This document shows positions 4,867 through 19,353 of a stretch of 64,000 nt of DNA, piece by piece (the stretch's first letter is position 1; every line of letters begins with the position of its first letter). The position numbers were made by a program, and so were the translations under genes. The DNA lies in the NCBI RefSeq assembly GCF_029338515.1, contig NZ_CP119988.1:558001-622000 (forward strand). Direction: 5' to 3'. This DNA is from Haloglomus litoreum (GTDB lineage Archaea > Halobacteriota > Halobacteria > Halobacteriales > Haloarculaceae). A model generated the notes under the pieces. That model saw only the letters and a list, made by a program, of their open reading frames with translations. It was not told where the DNA came from and made no database searches.

Positions 4867-4991
4867 GGTCGGCGTGTCGGCCAGTCGCTGCAAAAGGACT
4901 CCGGCCGACGGCGGCCCGGTCGCCGGCGACCTGCCGGCGTTCGTCCCTCGATGCGGGGACGAACTATGTGTCCGGGCGTCGTGCGGACGGT

Positions 4992-5393
4992 ATGGCCGCG
5001 ATACCCGACGAGTACCACGACCTGTTCGAGAAGCCGACCATCGCCCATCTCTCGACGCTGTTGCCCGACGGTTCGCCCCACAGCGCGCCGGTATGGATCG
5101 ACTACGACGCCGACGCCGAGCGGGTGCTGGTCAACACCGAGCGCGACCGCCGCAAGGAGAAGAACGTCCGCGGCGACCCGCGCGTGGCGGTCAGCATGAC
5201 CGACCCCGACAACCCCTACCGGATGCTCGCGCTCCGGGGCGAGGTCGACGAGATCACGACCGAGGGCGCCCGCGAGCACATCGACGAACTCGCAGGACAG
5301 TACATGGGAGAGGAAGACTACCCGAACCCCATCCAGACCGAGCGGGTCATCCTGGAGATCGCGGTCGAGCACGTCTCCGCGATGGGGGAGTAG
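4992..5393 (+). CDS. PPOX-class F420/flavin-dependent oxidoreductase
   Basis: The 133-aa single-domain protein has the split-barrel FMN/F420-binding fold signature: PTIAHLSTLLPDGSPHSAPVWIDYD, VLVNTERDRRKEKNVRGDPRVAVSM and LRGEVDEITTEGA. Members reduce small substrates with F420H2 or flavin; haloarchaea make F420, but the substrate here is unknown. The start is placed at the second ATG (MAAIPDEYHD), with an actatgtg box at about -27; an in-frame start eight codons upstream is possible. It stands alone, divergent from the membrane protein gene. Confidence 0.87.
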   Translation: MAAIPDEYHDLFEKPTIAHLSTLLPDGSPHSAPVWIDYDADAERVLVNTERDRRKEKNVRGDPRVAVSMTDPDNPYRMLALRGEVDEITTEGAREHIDELAGQYMGEEDYPNPIQTERVILEIAVEHVSAMGE

Positions 5394-5403
5394 GGAAAAT
5401 GGT

Positions 5404-5442
5404 GGAATAAATCATATAATTCGAAATTAAATAATTTATTCC
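5404..5442. terminator. AT-rich inverted repeat, possible terminator/promoter block
   Basis: GGAATAAAT (5404-5412) and ATTTATTCC (5434-5442) form 9-bp arms around an AT-only loop that itself holds aattcgaaatt. It starts 11 nt after the oxidoreductase stop codon in otherwise GC-rich DNA, so it is a good candidate terminator. A further TATA-like gtttatacgg at 5454-5463 may drive the next gene. Confidence 0.5.
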
Positions 5443-5593
5443 CATTTCTATGCGTTTATACGGCTGATTGATTCCGAGAATGGCGAGTTCGGCGCGAAAC
5501 GCTCTCTTCGTCTGCCCGTTCGGTCCTCGTGATTCCCGTCGGCCGAGAACCGTGGGCCAGTAGATGCCACGCCGACGCCTCTATACGGACGTT

Positions 5594-6481
5594 ATGGACG
5601 TTCGCAACTGGATATCCGAACACCGGTTCGTCAGTTTCGTCCTCGTGACGTACGCGTTCACGTGGACGTTCCACGCCGCCCTCTTCCAGCTCGGGCTGCC
5701 GCAGTCGTGGACCTTCTCCGTGCTGGCCGGGCTGGGCGCCTACGGCCCGGTCGTGGGCGCGGCGGTCGTCGTCTGGGCCAGCGGCGGTGACCTGCGGTCG
5801 TGGGTCGGGCAGGCGTTCCGGTGGCGGGTCCACCCGGTCTGGTGGGCCGTCGCGCTGCTGCTCCCGGCGTTCATCATCGTCGGGGCGACGGGCGTGTTCG
5901 TCCTGCTGGGCGGTGACCTCGTCGTCACCGGGCTGGAGACGCTGGTCGTCTACCCGTTCCTGCTGCTGTACGTCCTCGTCATCGGTGGGGGGCAGGAGGA
6001 ACTGGGCTGGCGCGGCTTCGCCCAACCGTATCTTCAGGAGCGCTACGGGGCGCTCGCCGCGGCGCTCGGAATCGGCGTCGTCTGGGCGACGTGGCACGCG
6101 CCCCTGTTCATCCTCCCCGGGGCGACCCAGGGCGGGTTCGACTTCGCGCTCTACTTCGGCGGCATCCTCGCCGAGTCCGTCATCCTCGCGTGGGTCTACA
6201 ACAGCACCGGCGGGAGCGTCCTCCTTGCCGGGCTGTTCCACGCCGGCAACAACGTCGCGATGAACTGGTACCCCGTCAACAACGTGCTGTTCGTCGACGG
6301 CATCCGCGACGAGTGGGTCGCGTCGACGGGCCAGCTGGCCGCGTTCGTGGTCCTGGCGCTCCTGGTCGTCCTCATCGTCGCCACGTACGGCCCACGGCGG
6401 CTCGCGCGCCGGCCCGTCCCGACGCTGCCGCTGGCGGAGCCGCCGGCGCCGGCGACCCCTCACGAGCGACCGTCGGACTGA
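5594..6481 (+). CDS. CPBP-family intramembrane metalloprotease
   Basis: This 295-aa membrane protein has about eight helices and the three CPBP (CAAX-protease/bacteriocin-processing) motifs: EELGWRGFAQPYL, WATWHAPLF and FHAGNNVAMN, which supply the glutamates and histidines of the active site. Family members cleave substrates within the membrane; in archaea their targets are mostly unknown. An in-frame ATG ten codons upstream (5564) would add a basic MPRRRLYTDV stretch; I chose MDVRNWISEH because the first helix follows at the expected distance. The C-terminus is Pro/Arg-rich and cytosolic. Confidence 0.87.
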   Translation: MDVRNWISEHRFVSFVLVTYAFTWTFHAALFQLGLPQSWTFSVLAGLGAYGPVVGAAVVVWASGGDLRSWVGQAFRWRVHPVWWAVALLLPAFIIVGATGVFVLLGGDLVVTGLETLVVYPFLLLYVLVIGGGQEELGWRGFAQPYLQERYGALAAALGIGVVWATWHAPLFILPGATQGGFDFALYFGGILAESVILAWVYNSTGGSVLLAGLFHAGNNVAMNWYPVNNVLFVDGIRDEWVASTGQLAAFVVLALLVVLIVATYGPRRLARRPVPTLPLAEPPAPATPHERPSD

Positions 6482-6540: not shown

Positions 6541-8089
6541 CTAGGTCGTACAGCGTCCCGTACTTCTCGCGGACGTAGTCGAGGAAGTAGTCGGCGGTGA
6601 ACTCCTCGCCGGTCGCCTGCTTCACCAGTTCGTTCGTCTCGTACTTCGCGCCGTGGCGGTGGACGTTCTCGGTGAGCCAGTCGTGGAGGTCGTCGAACTC
6701 ACCCCGCGAGATCTTCCCCTCGAGGTCGTCGATGTCGTCCTCCGCGGCGGCGTAGAGCTGGGCGGCCAGTACCGAGCCCAGCGTGTAGGTCGGGAAGTAG
6801 CCGAAGGAGCCGTGCGACCAGTGGATGTCCTGCAGGCAGCCTGTCGCATCGTTTTCCGGCCGGATGCCGAGATACTCCTCCATCTTCTCGTTCCACACGC
6901 CGGGCACGTCGGCCACGTCGAGGTCGCCGTGGACGAGGTCCTGCTCGATCTCGTAGCGCAGGACGATGTGCATGTGGTAGGTCAGCTCGTCCGCCTCGAC
7001 CCGGATGAGGTTGTCGTCGTACACCTGATTGGCGGCCTCGAAGGCGTCACGCGGCGTGAGGTCCTCGGCCGAGGGGAAGTGCTCGGCGAAGGTCGGGAGG
7101 AAGTGCTCCCACCACGCCGCCGAGCGCCCGACGTGGTTCTCCCAGAGCCGGGACTGCGACTCGTGGACCGAGAGGCCCCGGTGGGAGCCGAGGGGCGTGC
7201 CGTACTCGTCGTCGCGCAGGCCGAGCGTGTAGGTGGCGTGGCCGAACTCGTGGACCGTCGAGGAGAGCGCGTCGACGGGGTTCTCGGGGTCGAACCGCGT
7301 CGTGACGCGGGCGTCGAACTGGTTGCCCGTCGAGAACGGGTGCGTCGAGCGGTCGAGGCGGCCGTGCTCCCAGGGGTAGCCGAGTTCGTCGAGCGCGTCG
7401 CGCGCGACCTCCTCCTGGATGTCGGGGTCGTACTCGTCGTCGAAGGCGTCCGCGGCGAGCGTCACGTCCGACTCGGCGATGGCGTCGATGATGGGGACCA
7501 GTTCCTCGCGGAGCCGGGTGAGCACCCGGTCCGCGACCTCGAGGTCGAGGTAGGGCTCGTAGTCGGCGAACAGGACCGCGTACGGGTCGGCGTCGGGGTC
7601 GATGTGCGCGGCGTACTCGCGCTTCAGCTCCAGGAGGGTCTCGACCTTCGGCGCGAACTGCTCCCACTCGGACTCCTCGCGGGCCTGCTCCCAGACCGGC
7701 AGGGCGTTACTCGTCTCCTCGGAGATGCGCTCGACGAGGTCCTGCGGCACGGAGGCCTCGCGCTCGTACTCGCGGCGGATCTCCCGGACGACGGCCGCCT
7801 GCTCGTCGGTGAGGTCCGCCCCGTCGAGGTCGTCCAGCAGGTCGCCCACGGCATCGGCGGTGAGCTTCTCGTGGCCGACGCTGGAGAGCGCGGACTGCTG
7901 TTTCGAGCGGGCGGGCGTGCCGCCCTCGGGCATCATCACCTGCTGGTCCCAGGAGAGGACCATGCCGCCGTCCTGGAGGTAGGTCACCTGTCGATACCGG
8001 TCGAGCAGGTCGTGGTACGCGTCCGGTGCCCCGGCGTGGGGGCTCTCGCTGTCGGTAGCCGCGTCGGAGGGCTGTTGCTCGGTCGCCAT
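6533..8089 (-). CDS. Metallocarboxypeptidase, family M32
   Basis: The 518-aa protein matches thermostable carboxypeptidase Taq/Pfu type enzymes: the zinc motif HEFGH (STVHEFGHATYTLG), HESQSRLWENHVGRS, and the family N-terminus YRQVTYLQDGGMVLSWDQQVMMPEGG. M32 enzymes are metal-dependent, usually dimeric cytosolic exopeptidases that remove C-terminal residues. Length fits the family (about 500 aa). The ATG giving MATEQQPSD is preferred over one ten codons upstream because gttgatacc lies at about -27 from it. The N-terminal 30 residues are a disordered acidic tail. Confidence 0.94.
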   Translation of the reverse strand: MATEQQPSDAATDSESPHAGAPDAYHDLLDRYRQVTYLQDGGMVLSWDQQVMMPEGGTPARSKQQSALSSVGHEKLTADAVGDLLDDLDGADLTDEQAAVVREIRREYEREASVPQDLVERISEETSNALPVWEQAREESEWEQFAPKVETLLELKREYAAHIDPDADPYAVLFADYEPYLDLEVADRVLTRLREELVPIIDAIAESDVTLAADAFDDEYDPDIQEEVARDALDELGYPWEHGRLDRSTHPFSTGNQFDARVTTRFDPENPVDALSSTVHEFGHATYTLGLRDDEYGTPLGSHRGLSVHESQSRLWENHVGRSAAWWEHFLPTFAEHFPSAEDLTPRDAFEAANQVYDDNLIRVEADELTYHMHIVLRYEIEQDLVHGDLDVADVPGVWNEKMEEYLGIRPENDATGCLQDIHWSHGSFGYFPTYTLGSVLAAQLYAAAEDDIDDLEGKISRGEFDDLHDWLTENVHRHGAKYETNELVKQATGEEFTADYFLDYVREKYGTLYDLDL

Positions 8090-13963: not shown

Positions 13964-14968
13964 ATGTCACTGGCCATCCGGACCGACGACCTCGTGAAGG
14001 ACTACGGCGACGTCCGGGCGCTGGACGGCCTCTCGCTGGAGGTGGAGCAGGGGGAGTTCTTCGGGCTGCTCGGGCCCAACGGCGCCGGCAAGACGACGTT
14101 CATCAACACGCTCGTCGGCCTCGCGCGGGCGACGAGCGGGACCGCCGAGGTGTTCGGCCACGACGTGGAGGCCGACTACCGCGAGGCCCGCAACCGCATC
14201 GGCCTCGCTCCGCAGGAGTTCAACGTGGACCGCTTCTTTCCCATCCGCGAGGTGCTCGAGCACAAGGCCGGCTACCACGGTGTCCCGCCGGCCGAGGCGA
14301 GCGAGCGCGCCGACGAGGCGCTCCGCACCGTCGGCATCTACGACAAGCGCGACACGCGGTTCGACTGGCTCTCGGGCGGGATGAAACGGCGGTTCCTGCT
14401 CGCCCGGGCGCTCGTGACGGATCCGGACCTGCTCATCCTCGACGAACCCACGGCCGGCGTCGACGTCGAACTGCGCCGTGACCTCTGGGAGCTCATCGAG
14501 CGGCTCAACGCCGGCGGCACGACCATCCTCCTCACGACCCACTACATCGAGGAGGCCGAACGCCTCTGCGACCGCGTGGCAATCATGGACGAGGGGCGGC
14601 GCGTCGAGGTGGCCACGCCCGACGAGTTACGGGCCCGTGGGACCGACACGGTCCGCCTGACGCTCGGCGAGCGGCCCGCGGCGGTCCCGGAGGAGGTATT
14701 GGCCATCGGCGGCGTGCAGGACGCCCACGTCGACGGGGACGTGCTGTCCGTGACGGCCGCCGGCGGCGGGCGCGTCGCGCCCGACCTGATGCGGACGCTC
14801 GAATCCGCGGGCCACCGGGTCGTCGACCTCGACATCCGGCGGGCCTCGCTGGAGGAGGTGTTCGTCGCCATGACGCGGGTGGCCGACGAGGCGGACGACG
14901 AGACCACCGAGAACGGCCACGACGCCGGGCGCGAGGTCGCCGCCACGACCGGAGGGAGCGATGACTGA
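13964..14968 (+). CDS. ABC transporter ATP-binding protein (DrrA/multidrug type)
   Basis: The 334-aa ATPase has Walker A GPNGAGKTT, Q-loop APQEFNVDRFFPIREV, signature LSGGMKRR, Walker B LLILDEPTAG and H-loop TTHYIEEA, followed by the DrrA-type C-terminal regulatory domain. It would power an ABC-2 exporter with the permease encoded by the next gene, whose ATG overlaps this stop codon by 8 nt. A cttaacc box lies about 27 nt before the start. The permease is broken by an insertion, so this ATPase is at present probably an orphan unless the insertion leaves. Confidence 0.94.
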   Translation: MSLAIRTDDLVKDYGDVRALDGLSLEVEQGEFFGLLGPNGAGKTTFINTLVGLARATSGTAEVFGHDVEADYREARNRIGLAPQEFNVDRFFPIREVLEHKAGYHGVPPAEASERADEALRTVGIYDKRDTRFDWLSGGMKRRFLLARALVTDPDLLILDEPTAGVDVELRRDLWELIERLNAGGTTILLTTHYIEEAERLCDRVAIMDEGRRVEVATPDELRARGTDTVRLTLGERPAAVPEEVLAIGGVQDAHVDGDVLSVTAAGGGRVAPDLMRTLESAGHRVVDLDIRRASLEEVFVAMTRVADEADDETTENGHDAGREVAATTGGSDD

Positions 14969-15299
14969 GGACGACGGAGCCACCCGGACCGACGGGGGGA
15001 CACTCGGCGTCGGCACCGGGTCCGCCTCGACCAGCGCCCGCGGCGTCGGCTTCCGGTCGCTGCTCAAACGCGAGATACTCCGGTTCGTCCGGCGCCCGCG
15101 CAACACCTTCCTCCCGCCCGCCATCACGAACATCCTCTACTTCGCCGTCTTCGGGGTCGTGCTGGGCGGGCGCATCGACCAGATCGCGGGCTTCGACTAC
15201 ATCCTCTTCATCCTGCCCGGCCTCGTCGTGCTGGGCGCCATCTCCAACGCCTTCGAGAACAGCGCGTTCTCCATCTTCCACGGCCGCTGGAACGACTAC
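14961..15299 (+). pseudogene. ABC-2 permease, 5' portion (interrupted by integrative element)
   Basis: These 113 codons encode an N-terminal tail, RSLLKREILRFVRRPRN and two helices typical of ABC-2 permeases, ending FSIFHGRWNDY. The frame then enters the integrated element, adds FLRQST and stops at 15320. The rest of the gene resumes in frame at 18835 with IHEVLTSPLSYREQ. The two halves share the direct repeat GGAACGACTAC, and joining them gives an uninterrupted 285-aa permease. Its start overlaps the ATPase gene. Confidence 0.93.
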
Positions 15300-15308
15300 T
15301 TCCTGCGC
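15285..15308. other. Left attachment site (attL) of the integrative element
   Basis: Core CGACTAC (15293-15299) is flanked by CGCTGGAA (15285-15292) and TTCCTGCG (15300-15307), inverted arms with one mismatch. The left arm is permease coding sequence, the right arm belongs to the element. Seven bases between inverted arms is the usual spacing of tyrosine-recombinase core sites. Confidence 0.8.
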
Positions 15309-15320
15309 CAGAGTACGTAG

Positions 15321-16454
15321 GAATTGAGTAAGCGCGTGGGGAGACGCATCCCGAAAGAGCACCAGCGGCCGTCTTCGGGCTGACGGCCTTCCCCTGTGCT
15401 ATCCACGAGCGCGGCCTGTGGCGGTTGTGTGACCATCCGTGCGCCCCGTGCCGGCACAGGTACCCCGGAGTGAGGACCGGCTGGGGATGGGGCACAGCCC
15501 GACGAGAGCGGGGGCAGTAAGAACATTAACCGCGCGTGCGCAGCAAGTATTTAGTCACCTACCGTCCGAAATATTTGAAATTTGACTCCAATCTCGGAAG
15601 TGGCGCTTTTTCTTGAAATACCAAAACAGAATAACAGGGAGTATGGAAGATGTTTTCTATTCTGATATTCTTTGAGCAGAAAATGAATATTTTGCAATAT
15701 ACTTTGAGGGCCTTGGTTGATGAGTCGGTGTGCGCGCGTCAGAAGGTACGTTTCGGAACCTCTGTGGTCGAACCTCGGGGTTTTAGTCTTTAGGTTGGCT
15801 CTCCCCGATCTAAGAACCAGCAATAAACTCCGGATTTGGATTTGGGGATTCAGACACGAGAGAGTCTGAGAACAGGGATTAGGCCCCCCTATTTGAACCC
15901 TTTACCATTAATATCAGTAACGCGGTGCCGACGACTGGCGCCGAAGCACGGACGACCGCAGATTGTGGGGGTATGTCTCCGACCGAGGCATACCTCCCGG
16001 CCACGTAGGCCAATAGACCGGATTCCCGCTTCCTCGATGAGCCCGACCGTTGCCGACAAAGGCGCGGAGGGTAACGATTCGTGACCGACCACAAGGGGTC
16101 GGCATATGAAGCAGGGAGTTAGGACTTGGTTGAGGTAACTACGTTGCAAAGTGCCTTCGATTGGTCGTCACCCCCACTAAGGGGGGAGAGTGCAGCTTTA
16201 GAACGCCCCGTCAATGCGTCGGAACGCTTAGTGTTGATCTCCGGCCATCCTCGGGTAAGATGGCCCGGAGGGAGAATAGAAGATAGTCAGTCAGTAGTGA
16301 CTCTGTTGAAATTCTCCACACCTGACAGTACCGGCGTGACCGATACAGAGGATGGGTTCAGCAAACATTGGTGAGGGTTTCAGTCACTCTGCCATGGGCA
16401 AATCCGTCAGGTGCCCCACAAAATATTCATCCACATGATTGAGAGTAGACAACC
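15321..16454. other. Non-coding left part of the element
   Basis: About 1.1 kb without a convincing gene. 15321-15520 is GC-rich, then 15530-15850 is the most AT-rich DNA in the window. Open frames here (for example the minus-strand one at 15551-15823) lack the acidic composition of real haloarchaeal proteins. On the minus strand near 15889-15960 a short stretch reads VRASAPVVGTALLILMV, similar to the N-terminal segment of haloarchaeal pilins, followed at once by a stop, possibly a gene remnant. A TATA-like acaaaatattc near 16418 serves the lipoprotein gene. Confidence 0.55.
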
Positions 16455-17132
16455 ATGTCCCTGCCCTCCCGGCGTCGCCTCCTCGAAGCCCTCGCTATAG
16501 GTGCAACTACAATCTCGGGATGCAGTTCGCTGACTGGGATGTCCAGCGAGGAGTCACCATCTTCTGGTACGCCAGAGAGCGGTACGTTGACATCGACCCC
16601 CAAAGAGACGCCCTTGCCAACACCTGTTAAGAACCCTCGCGCCTCACCTGCCCCGACGTGCCGTGAGGGCTACTACTCCCTTAGTCCGTGGTGGGTCGTC
16701 GTCGGCCCGGGGCCAGTCGGAGGATTCAGACTCTCTCTTGATCAGCACAGCTTCGCGCACGGTGACACCCTTACAGCCACGCTGACGAATGTAACCAGCA
16801 CACCACGACTGACCGGGAACAAGTCGAAATTCGATATCCAATATCGGTCGGAGAATGGGTGGCACACGATTCTTGGAAACGAGTATGAGCAGCCGGATTT
16901 CCTTGACGACGGAGTGAGGCATGAGCCAGAAGAAGGGTTCACATGGAAACTCCCTCTCACCCAGCAGGGGCTGTCGAATGCTGGTGATGAGTACAATAGA
17001 TTCCAGGTCTGCACCTCGCTTGCCGCAGGAGACTACCGCTTCGTCTACTGGGGAGTATCGTTTCAGCAGAGGGCCAAGAGTGACGATGAAGAATACGCTG
17101 TCGGAGTCCGGTTTACGCTCTCCGAGGACTAA
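16455..17132 (+). CDS. Tat-exported lipoprotein of the integrative element
   Basis: The 225-aa protein starts MSLPSRRRLLEALAIGATTI followed by SGC: a twin-arginine signal and lipobox, so it is probably exported folded and lipid-anchored at Cys23. A Ser/Thr/Pro-rich linker (to about residue 65) leads to a beta-rich globular domain with SLDQHSFAHGDTLTATLTNV and GDYRFVYWGVSF, like the Ig-like domains found in many haloarchaeal plasmid and provirus lipoproteins. Two or more cysteines remain in the mature part. The role is unknown; a surface-exclusion or attachment function would be a guess. Promoter box acaaaatattc is at about -30. Confidence 0.75.
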   Translation: MSLPSRRRLLEALAIGATTISGCSSLTGMSSEESPSSGTPESGTLTSTPKETPLPTPVKNPRASPAPTCREGYYSLSPWWVVVGPGPVGGFRLSLDQHSFAHGDTLTATLTNVTSTPRLTGNKSKFDIQYRSENGWHTILGNEYEQPDFLDDGVRHEPEEGFTWKLPLTQQGLSNAGDEYNRFQVCTSLAAGDYRFVYWGVSFQQRAKSDDEEYAVGVRFTLSED

Positions 17133-17162
17133 CTATTCACAGGCCGACTCGCGCTCTGTATA

Positions 17163-17202
17163 CAGCAGGACTGCTGAAACCTATCACCCACTGGGGGTTT
17201 CA
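17163..17202 (+). terminator. Inverted repeats after the lipoprotein gene
   Basis: CAGCAG-ga-CTGCTG (17163-17176) abuts TGAAACC (17175-17181) paired with GGTTTCA (17196-17202) over a 14-nt loop. The pair lies between the converging lipoprotein and integrase genes and could end either transcript. Confidence 0.4.
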
Positions 17203-17275
17203 ACAAGGCCAGAAACCGATTAGTCCACCTGCGGCGCCCGAGGAACGCCGCCTTCCGCCAATCAAACCCCTTCTG

Positions 17276-18271
17276 TCAAGCGTAAGGGTCGAACAGACGG
17301 GATTCTTCTTTAGCTTCGTCTTTCGACTGTTGGAGATAGATGAGAGTTGTATCGAGTTCGTCGTGGCCGAGAAGGCTTTGAAGTGAGCGAATATCGATAT
17401 CTGACCGGATAGCCTGCATCGCAAAGGAGTGACGGAGTGTGTGAGCTGTCACCCGGTGGATTTTCCGCCCATCGGAATACTCTGCGATAACCTCCTGTAG
17501 ACCGGCTTCTTCTGCTGCCTCTTTGATCATCTGTCCGATATAGGCACCGGAGATGTGTTCGCGCTTGTTCGTCGGGAACAGATACGGGGATTCATCGGCG
17601 TAGGTCATACTCTCTCGACCGCCGTAATCCAGCCATTGCGAGAGATGAAACCCGATGTATTCCTCGTTATAGGACACAAGGCGGCTGTTTTCTGATTTCA
17701 TCGGAGGGATGAAGATAGATTTGTCCTTGCGATCTATATTATCTACCTTACACTTCGCTAATTCTCCCCGGCGAAAGCCGCAGTTGAACATCAGACGAAT
17801 CATCAACTCATTCCTGAGTCTCGGGGCCGGAACATTATCCACTAACTCCGAAACTTCGTCAGACATTAAGTACGGAAATTCGTCCTGTGTAGTGTCCGAA
17901 AGGCCAGATTTCTTTTTCGTATCACCACGGAGAAAGCGTTTGTCGTCGCTATCAAGGCCGTCATACGGATTCTCCGGCACGTCCGGCATATCGAACCGTT
18001 CCTCCAACTTCTCCATATCTTGATAGAATTTTGAGATAGCCGACACCCGCTGACTGATAGTGGTGGGGGCCATCCCTTCGTCAGTCAACTCCTCGATGAA
18101 AACGAGCAAGTCCACAGAGTCGGCATCCCACACACTCTTGTCTCGGTTCTCCGAAAGCCAGTCCCGCCAATTCTCTGCGTGCCGGGCGTACCGCTTGACG
18201 GTCGAATCTGCCGAGCCACGCCCTCTGCGCTTCTTGAAACGGTCTACAGCCTTTTCAAACGCCTCCGTCAT
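17276..18271 (-). CDS. Tyrosine recombinase / integrase (XerC/D-like)
   Basis: The 331-aa protein has an N-terminal SAM-like core-binding domain (about residues 5-100) and a catalytic domain with the full active-site set: Arg167 in CGFRRGELA, His277 and Arg280 in AHTLRHSF, His303 in LLGHDELD and nucleophile Tyr312 in TLIYLQ. It should cut and rejoin DNA at the element ends, where a 7-bp core between inverted arms is seen. Its ATG overlaps the stop of the upstream regulator gene (ATGA), implying translational coupling. The gene lies inside the element and reads away from the right end. Confidence 0.95.
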   Translation of the reverse strand: MTEAFEKAVDRFKKRRGRGSADSTVKRYARHAENWRDWLSENRDKSVWDADSVDLLVFIEELTDEGMAPTTISQRVSAISKFYQDMEKLEERFDMPDVPENPYDGLDSDDKRFLRGDTKKKSGLSDTTQDEFPYLMSDEVSELVDNVPAPRLRNELMIRLMFNCGFRRGELAKCKVDNIDRKDKSIFIPPMKSENSRLVSYNEEYIGFHLSQWLDYGGRESMTYADESPYLFPTNKREHISGAYIGQMIKEAAEEAGLQEVIAEYSDGRKIHRVTAHTLRHSFAMQAIRSDIDIRSLQSLLGHDELDTTLIYLQQSKDEAKEESRLFDPYA

Positions 18272-18771
18272 TCCTCAGTCCTCCGGTAGTACGTCGGGCC
18301 ACCCTGCTCCGGCTGCCCGGCGATCTCCACCATATTCGTCTGTTCTGCCAGCCGGGTTAGTGCCTGAGTCACCTCCATTTCATCGCGGTCAATCCTTTCC
18401 GCGATTTCTGCTGGCTGGATAGAGCCAGAGTGAGGTAAAGACTTGAATATTTCATTCTTAAGGTTCGTTTTCTCTGAAGCGCCGACTTCCTCCTCCAGCG
18501 TGTTAACCCGGCGGTCAAGACTGCTCAGGGTATCCTGTATGCTGCTGAGAGTCCCGTCAATCGATTCCAACACTTCGGTAGTATCATCGGCTGTCCCACT
18601 CTCATCCCGCCCTCTGGGCACGGCGGGACCCTCCTCGGACAACTCGTGAGCGACAGCAGTACGGATGAGATCGGAGAGGCTGGAATACTCCACCGACTCA
18701 GATACCGCTTCGTCCCACTCCTCCTTTTGTGAGGGGGATACCGTCAGATTGACGCGCTTCCTGTCTGCCAT
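18268..18771 (-). CDS. Ribbon-helix-helix-like DNA-binding protein of the element
   Basis: The 167-aa protein begins MADRKRVNLTVSPSQKEEWD and continues SLSDLIRTAVAHEL, an RHH-type N-terminal DNA-binding pattern. A coiled-coil region follows (TEVLESIDGTLSSIQDTLSSL), then a C-terminal winged-helix-like part (IQPAEIAERIDRDEMEVTQALTRLAE). The layout fits a dimeric regulator or recombination directionality partner of the integrase; similar small genes sit just upstream of integrases in other haloarchaeal elements. The start is chosen at MADRKR because gttttattcat lies about 25-30 nt upstream; an earlier in-frame ATG would run across the attachment site. Confidence 0.78.
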   Translation of the reverse strand: MADRKRVNLTVSPSQKEEWDEAVSESVEYSSLSDLIRTAVAHELSEEGPAVPRGRDESGTADDTTEVLESIDGTLSSIQDTLSSLDRRVNTLEEEVGASEKTNLKNEIFKSLPHSGSIQPAEIAERIDRDEMEVTQALTRLAEQTNMVEIAGQPEQGGPTYYRRTEE

Positions 18772-18818
18772 TACGACTCTACTGACACACGGGCTATGAA
18801 TAAAACTTGTGTAAGATA

Positions 18819-18840
18819 GCACAGGAACGACTACATCCAC
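18819..18840. other. Right attachment site (attR) of the integrative element
   Basis: Element arm GCACAGGAA (18819-18827), core CGACTAC (18828-18834), then permease codons beginning ATCC. Pairing the element arm here with the element arm at the left end (TTCCTGCGC, 15300-15308) rebuilds an attP with 9-bp arms that match at eight positions. Confidence 0.8.
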
Positions 18841-19353
18841 GAGGTACTCACCTCGCCGCTCTCCTATCGCGAGCAGGTTGCGGCCTACACCCTCGCGTCG
18901 ATGCTCCGGGGCCTGATGGTCGGGTTCATCATCGTCGGGGTCGGGCTCGTCTTCCTGCCGTTCGCCATCGACCGCTCGTTCGTCCCCATCGAGCGGCCGT
19001 TCTACCTCGTCGCGTTCATGCTGGTCGTGACCACGCTGTTCGCCTCGTTCGGCGTCATGGGCGGGCTCTGGGCCGAGGACTTCGACTACCTGACGGTGCT
19101 CAACCAGTTCATCCTCCGGCCGCTCGTCTTCTTCGGCGGCGTCTTCTACTCGCTGGACGTCCTGCCGCCGCTGTACCGGACGCTCTCGCTGCTGAACCCG
19201 ATGATCTACATGGTCAACGGCGTCCGCTACGGCTTCCTCGGCTACGCAGACGTGGATCCGAACGCCTCGCTGGTCGTCCTGACGGGGCTGACGGTAGTCG
19301 TCATCGCGGCGAACGTGGCGCTGTTCCGGCGCGGATACGGACTCATCGACTGA
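18835..19353 (+). pseudogene. ABC-2 permease, 3' portion
   Basis: From the end of the element the frame reads IHEVLTSPLSYREQVAAYTL and continues through four hydrophobic segments (LRGLMVGFIIVGVGLVFL, FYLVAFMLVVTTLFASFG, PLVFFGGVFYSLDVLP, LVVLTGLTVVVIAANVAL) to a stop. This is the C-terminal two thirds of an ABC-2 permease, in frame with the 5' part at 14961-15299. An internal ATG at 18901 could be used, but a protein without the first helices is unlikely to work. Confidence 0.92.

Follow-up and report, generated by a model that had tools for sequence, protein, structure and literature searches.

A small haloarchaeal integrative element within an exporter permease gene, and relatives that may replace the gene they sever

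Integrases that use genes as targets normally spare the gene or rebuild its end. In active lysogeny, integration severs a gene and excision is tied to prophage induction, with a regulatory effect. Helper-embedded phage-inducible chromosomal islands (PICIs), which are bacterial satellites, sever and release prophage genes (PMC10111431). The usual targets of archaeal integrases are tRNA genes, as the first-pass annotation of the locus described here had noted, but sites in protein-coding genes, mostly at 3' ends, have also been published (PMC6563490, PMC8371274, PMC10264941). Thaumarchaeal integrated elements have such attachment (att) sites, again mostly at 3' ends (PMC6563490), a 10-kb element in pilB2 of Halobacterium is bounded by an 8-bp repeat and absent from strain R1 (PMC10264941), and the SNJ2 integrase, whose operon provides a coiled-coil (Orf2) and a MarR-like (Orf3) helper, uses a 13-14-bp site at the 3' end of a tRNA gene (PMC8371274). 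Here, we describe an element of about 3.5 kb in Haloglomus litoreum (GCF_029338515.1, a single contig of 4.70 Mb, NZ_CP119988.1), located in the window 558001-622000, by which we mean the whole 64,000-nucleotide stretch analysed. The element is very probably a small integrative mobile element of a haloarchaeal family recognized by a pair of genes, one for a ribbon-helix-helix (RHH), coiled-coil and winged-helix protein and one for a XerA-like integrase, and some members of this family would compensate for the exporter they sever.

The interrupted gene belongs to an exporter operon, the relevant features being as follows:
13964-14968, + strand: DrrA-like ABC ATPase gene of the target operon (ABC_tran 1e-33, DrrA1-3_C 3e-7; start codon inferred)
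14961-15299, + strand: 5' portion of the ABC-2 permease gene, 113 codons ending in WNDY (open reading frame with the N-terminal part of PF01061; ATG at 14961)
15300-18823, no strand assigned: the integrated element (absent from congeners; GC content 54% against about 70% in the flanks)
18835-19353, + strand: 3' portion of the permease gene, 172 codons from IHEVLTSP (C-terminal part of PF01061)

The ATPase gene lies upstream of the permease gene and overlaps it by 8 bp, and its product matches the drrA subfamily model at 3.5e-79, below the cut-off of that model. The severed permease frame reads six codons (FLRQST) into the element before a stop at 15318-15320, and for as long as the element stays in place the 3' part is not read as permease. 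Joined, the flanks encode a 285-amino-acid ABC2_membrane protein, i.e., an ABC-2 permease of the DrrA/DrrB type. Two congeners (G001, G002) possess an uninterrupted permease gene, 94-96% identical, with GGAACGACTACATCC at the joint. This is a genuine empty attB, and the 3.5-kb insert is thus a true insertion whose empty site is known. The first-pass annotation had read the permease to WNDY at 15299 and again from IHEVLTSP at 18835, had proposed that the insertion is precisely reversible, and had called for comparison with related genomes lacking the element; its coordinates and sequences hold, and both the joined 285-codon frame and the intact genes of the congeners bear out the rest. No further close copy of the permease beyond the two halves was found in the genome of the host, and, as the element brings no replacement either, the host presently lacks this permease unless the element excises. 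It is thus predicted to be an exporter knockout at present.

The ends of the element, together with the two genes characteristic of the family, comprise the following features:
15289-15303, + strand: attL core GGAACGACTACTTCC (direct repeat with 18824-18838; family comparison)
18824-18838, + strand: attR core GGAACGACTACATCC (direct repeat; family comparison)
15314-15331, + strand: left arm motif TACGTAGGAATTGAGTAA, resembling the motif at 18797-18814 (distance to the core equal in five elements)
18797-18814, + strand: right arm motif TGAATAAAACTTGTGTAA, 9 bp from the core (sequence and position conserved among close relatives)
17276-18271, - strand: XerA-like tyrosine recombinase (integrase) of 331 amino acids (PF00589 1.5e-29, PF02899 3e-9)
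18268-18771, - strand: RHH, coiled-coil and winged-helix protein of 167 amino acids (family alignment; AlphaFold2, mean predicted local distance difference test score 73)

With one copy of the repeat counted at each end, the element occupies 15289-18834. Direct repeats at both ends (11 bp, GGAACGACTAC, at 15289-15299 and again at 18824-18834), an empty site in relatives (G001, G002) and a recombinase with an R-K-H-R-H-Y active site mark it as a tyrosine-recombinase integrative element. Eight family members share the catalytic residues R167, K192, H277, R280, H303 and Y312 without exception. The closest models and solved structures are those of archaeal XerA and XerD, although the score against the XerA_Arch model NF040815 (1e-40, 139.9 bits) falls short of its equivalog cut-off of 220. 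The predicted attP, GCACAGGAA-CGACTAC-TTCCTGCGC, is symmetric at 8 of 9 arm positions, while the attP sites of relatives are less symmetric, with only the inner GGA-N9-TCC kept. In all ten mapped elements attL equals attR over core positions 5-11, the 7-bp centre of the 15-bp core; at the permease site this 7-mer is CGA(C/G)TAC and the core is GGA-N9-TCC or nearly so. The shared junction sequence, the 9-bp arms with one mismatch around CGACTAC, the Xer-like core layout of an integrase-borne element in a protein gene and the complete set of catalytic residues had all been proposed from the window alone and are confirmed, the 7-bp core by the family comparison. The question raised by PMC8371274 as to dyad symmetry in the att sites of archaeal protein genes finds a positive answer here in GGA-N9-TCC.

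Conservation across 25 intact permease genes was ranked for 706 intervals of 15 nucleotides; first place went to the interval one base upstream of attB and sixth place to the attB 15-mer. The attachment site thus falls on the best-conserved stretch of the gene, a protein-gene counterpart of the use of tRNA genes, so that the integrase would find its site in many hosts.

A search for the integrase in several hundred haloarchaeal genomes returned eleven integrases at 44-78% identity and many more at 34-40%. Close homologues occur in few of these genomes and are absent from the congeners, and an RHH-type protein adjoins the integrase in those relatives whose regions were examined. Six elements are inserted at identical permease codons, namely that of the window (G000), that of Haloarchaeobius sp. 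FL176 (G240), and those of G136, G428, G427 and G047, the integrases of the five relatives being 45-78% identical to that of the window; homologous elements do exist elsewhere, in favour of the first-pass annotation. In the permease tree, the split hosts G000, G136, G427 and G428 cluster with the intact genes of their own congeners, and consequently the insertions at the same codons apparently arose independently in these four hosts. Split-looking permeases in G355 and G381 were considered as further cases of this element and rejected, since they resemble a frameshift and a short duplication. The element of G047 (L071) encodes a DUF1424 putative Rep protein (4947-5732) and a SWIM zinc-finger protein (6606-7130). 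For this permease-targeting element, the two proteins suggest an integrative plasmid.

Other members occupy other genes. The element of Halobellus rarus (G371) lies at the 3' end of a DoxX gene and that of G139 (L068, att GATCGACTACTTCT) at the 3' end of an EF-2 gene, the gene end being rebuilt in both, whereas the element of Halopenitus persicus (G100) lies inside a histidine kinase gene, and elements of the wider family lie inside TspO and PilB-type ATPase genes; these five gene names were read from the joined frames, without a family search. In the wider family, with integrases at 34-40% identity, exact-repeat att sites are plausible only for the TspO case, the PilB-type case and one further case. 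Two wider-family elements (L081, L084) seemingly lie within PilB-type ATPase genes, which may be compared with the 10-kb pilB2 element of Halobacterium salinarum (PMC10264941). On the integrase tree the permease label requires three to five changes, so target changes must be frequent, and the family shows an integrase switching targets among protein genes. No close integrase relatives were found in viral contigs, where a scan for the arm motif gave chance matches only, with no integrase beside them; phage and plasmid collections contained distant integrase relatives only, the best, on a Natrinema plasmid, at 32%.

Evidence for compensation comes from two of the relatives at the permease site and from a remnant. 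The elements of G136 and G427 carry, just inside their left end, an entire permease gene (about 250 codons) whose product is 63% identical to the joined permease of the window. The start codon of this internal gene overlaps the stop zone of the severed host frame (ATGA in G427, ATGAGTAG in G136). In G169 (L093, 7760-8826) a host stub is followed by an element-like left end and a complete permease gene, again with ATGA, while the integrase and the 3' half of the host gene are missing. The three internal permeases cluster together, apart from those of their hosts (support 85/25; 91/84 for a pair). The internal permeases of G136 and G427 would therefore replace the severed exporter and be translated by coupling, which the overlap leads us to infer, and G169 looks like a finished gene replacement. 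We lean, by a little, towards a reading of these cases as target replacement, in which the integrase targets conserved nucleotides of the exporter and severs the gene, and the element's own permease enters the operon through the overlap of start and stop codons. If so, the element becomes the exporter gene, its loss would be costly, exporter alleles would be swapped between genera, and the element of the window would be a member that lost its substitute or never had one. A search for a decayed permease in the non-coding left part of this element, 1.1 kb long, gave no credible match.

The second family protein may take part in the recombination itself. Its gene precedes that of the integrase with a 4-bp overlap, and the AlphaFold2 model consists of two N-terminal helices of RHH-like appearance, a helix of 50 residues and a winged helix; it is probably an integrase helper and repressor. 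In the attP layout, TGAATAAAACTTGTGTAA stands left of the core at 9 bp and a similar motif right of it; to judge from the coiled-coil and MarR-like proteins that assist the SNJ2 integrase (PMC8371274), these arm motifs are probably bound by the RHH protein. In the mechanism we propose, the attP of a circular element, i.e., core and flanking arm motifs, would recombine with attB, with strand exchange inside the 7-bp centre, and the RHH protein, bound to the arm motifs, would probably set the direction of recombination as well as its own expression. Integration severs the exporter, and some members would offset the loss through their own left-end permease, the overlap with the broken host frame being visible in the sequence and the translational coupling presumed. 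The element of the window holds a lipoprotein gene and a structured non-coding segment in place of the permease, so that its host is at present mutant for the exporter, a defect that one excision event would repair.

Several observations weigh against this account. Support for the grouping of all three cargo permeases is weak (85/25), even though it is better for two of them (91/84). A replacement is present neither in the element of the window, which thus carries no working substitute and is not itself gene-substituting, nor in three of the five other permease-targeting elements. The arm-motif pair is significant (p < 0.05 against shuffles, each element taken singly) in only seven of ten elements, the window's own giving a non-significant p of 0.31, and the two copies of the motif are direct repeats in some elements but inverted repeats in others. 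The circle, its excision and the use of attP are all deduced from sequence.

Compared with the congeners, the 3' half of the window's permease has a ratio of nonsynonymous to synonymous substitution rates (dN/dS) of 0.017-0.034, with about 35 synonymous and 2-4 amino-acid changes, and the 3' halves in the split hosts G136, G428 and G427 give 0.04-0.10. Since long inactivation would have left many more amino-acid changes, the insertions are either young or regularly undone. A young age fits the best surviving alternative, which we consider possible but rather unlikely, namely a plain selfish insertion heading for loss, in which mobile DNA occupies a conserved position in the coding sequence of an exporter that the host can spare, with neither control of the host gene nor compensation anywhere in the family. 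A search at E 1e-22 left 116 of 391 haloarchaeal genomes without a match to the permease, which is therefore dispensable, and most elements lack a spare permease. For the element of the window this alternative and the preferred explanation agree; they differ on compensation within the family. There, three cargo permeases at the same place, each with the start/stop overlap, and one of them outlasting the rest of its element, suggest that loss of the exporter is costly in at least some lineages.

The other reading of the low dN/dS, that the insertion is regularly undone, leads to the on/off switch for the exporter that the first-pass annotation had suggested, in which excision, in a fraction of the cells or in response to some condition, turns the exporter on again, comparable to active lysogeny or developmental excision. 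Excision would, as judged from the junctions, restore the permease frame exactly, the catalytic residues of the recombinase are intact, and the untranslated 3' half has kept its low dN/dS, as it has in the three other split hosts; but a young insertion accounts for the same values. Integrases 65-78% identical target unrelated genes, two relatives carry a replacement permease and so need no switch, in G169 the 3' half is gone completely and the replacement is permanent, the attR of G136 has an extra base so that excision would shift the frame, and neither an empty site or circle in this strain nor condition-dependent excision is known. The variety of targets, the genes for replacement permeases and the case of G169, where replacement looks complete, make a dedicated exporter switch less likely; we regard the suggestion as unsupported and improbable. 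It is similarly doubtful that the internal permeases of G136 and G427 are chance captures or duplicates. They occur, it is true, in only two complete elements and one remnant, but the permeases are intact (about 250 amino acids), share one position, overlap the host stop codon every time and cluster with one another rather than with their hosts. An assembly or sequencing artefact, for which no supporting point was found, can practically be dismissed, as the genome is a single contig and the architecture recurs in the independent assemblies of relatives, which refute it.

The rest of the window's element, in which the left 1.1 kb contains no convincing gene, is made up of two further features:
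15945-16186, + strand: conserved structured non-coding segment (82% and 71% identity to two other elements)
16455-17132, + strand: cargo lipoprotein of 225 amino acids with a twin-arginine translocation (Tat)/lipobox-type signal (open reading frame; Big_14 at E 7e-4, below cut-off; signal judged by eye)

The segment, of about 245 nucleotides, is shared by the window (15945-16186) and two Halopenitus persicus elements with different integrases (L083, 5796-6039; L069, 6597-6843). Compared with shuffled sequences it folds with a z-score of -4.0 on the + strand and -1.3 on the other, and 25 of 86 predicted pairs are changed on both sides, against 9.8 in shuffled and 0-4 in slid controls, the comparison comprising three sequences only. 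Neither the segment nor the element matched Rfam, and a covariance model found the segment nowhere else in 292 genomes. Some of these elements therefore probably carry a structured RNA of a kind not described before. The immunoglobulin-like match of the lipoprotein is weak. Upstream of its gene, at 16299-16364, lies a stretch of 33-65 bp that recurs at eight other places in the same genome with 79-88% identity, and the non-coding parts of three elements (L065, L066, L067) contain one or two copies of a G-rich repeat of some 42 bp (GAGAGGGAAAGGAAAGGGGACTACAGGGGATAGGATAGG), with identities of up to 95% from one element to another.

Among known systems, the suicidal archaeal integrases (SSV, pTN3, pT26-2) have attP within the integrase gene, which is split on integration, whereas here that gene stays intact and the att sites lie outside it. 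Archaeal XerA/dif provides the closest family model and solved structure, yet the score remains far below the XerA equivalog cut-off, and XerA is a conserved chromosomal gene for chromosome dimer resolution while the present integrase is mobile and patchily distributed. As in the SNJ2 type, a haloarchaeal SAM/Phage_integrase recombinase shares an operon with helper proteins; SNJ2 differs in its tRNA 3'-end site, the sites here being in protein genes and a single protein combining RHH, coiled coil and winged helix. As in helper-embedded PICIs and active lysogeny, integrases pick and sever protein genes that excision restores; there, excision is coupled to prophage induction and has a regulatory effect, a link not known here. 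We know of no PICI or active-lysogeny element with a substitute for the gene it severs. No published element carrying a complete, coupled substitute for its severed gene was found in the open-access literature, most subscription journals lying outside the scope of the search. One haloarchaeal integrase family cuts a transporter gene midway in at least six genomes, and some members supply a complete substitute with its start codon placed for coupling, a possible route by which mobile DNA turns indispensable and transporter alleles move between genera. The pilB2 element (PMC10264941) is likewise haloarchaeal, inside a protein gene and bounded by a short direct repeat, and two wider-family members seemingly lie in PilB-type genes, the likeness being one of site and architecture. 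The thaumarchaeal elements (PMC6563490) share with this family a tyrosine recombinase, short att repeats and protein-coding targets; as in the EF-2 and DoxX members described here, the stop codon is rebuilt by the element, and EF-2, the site of L068, is also a casposon target in thaumarchaea. The thaumarchaeal elements, however, insert at 3' ends and keep the gene, whereas here insertion is mid-gene, the gene is severed and some members come with a whole substitute gene.

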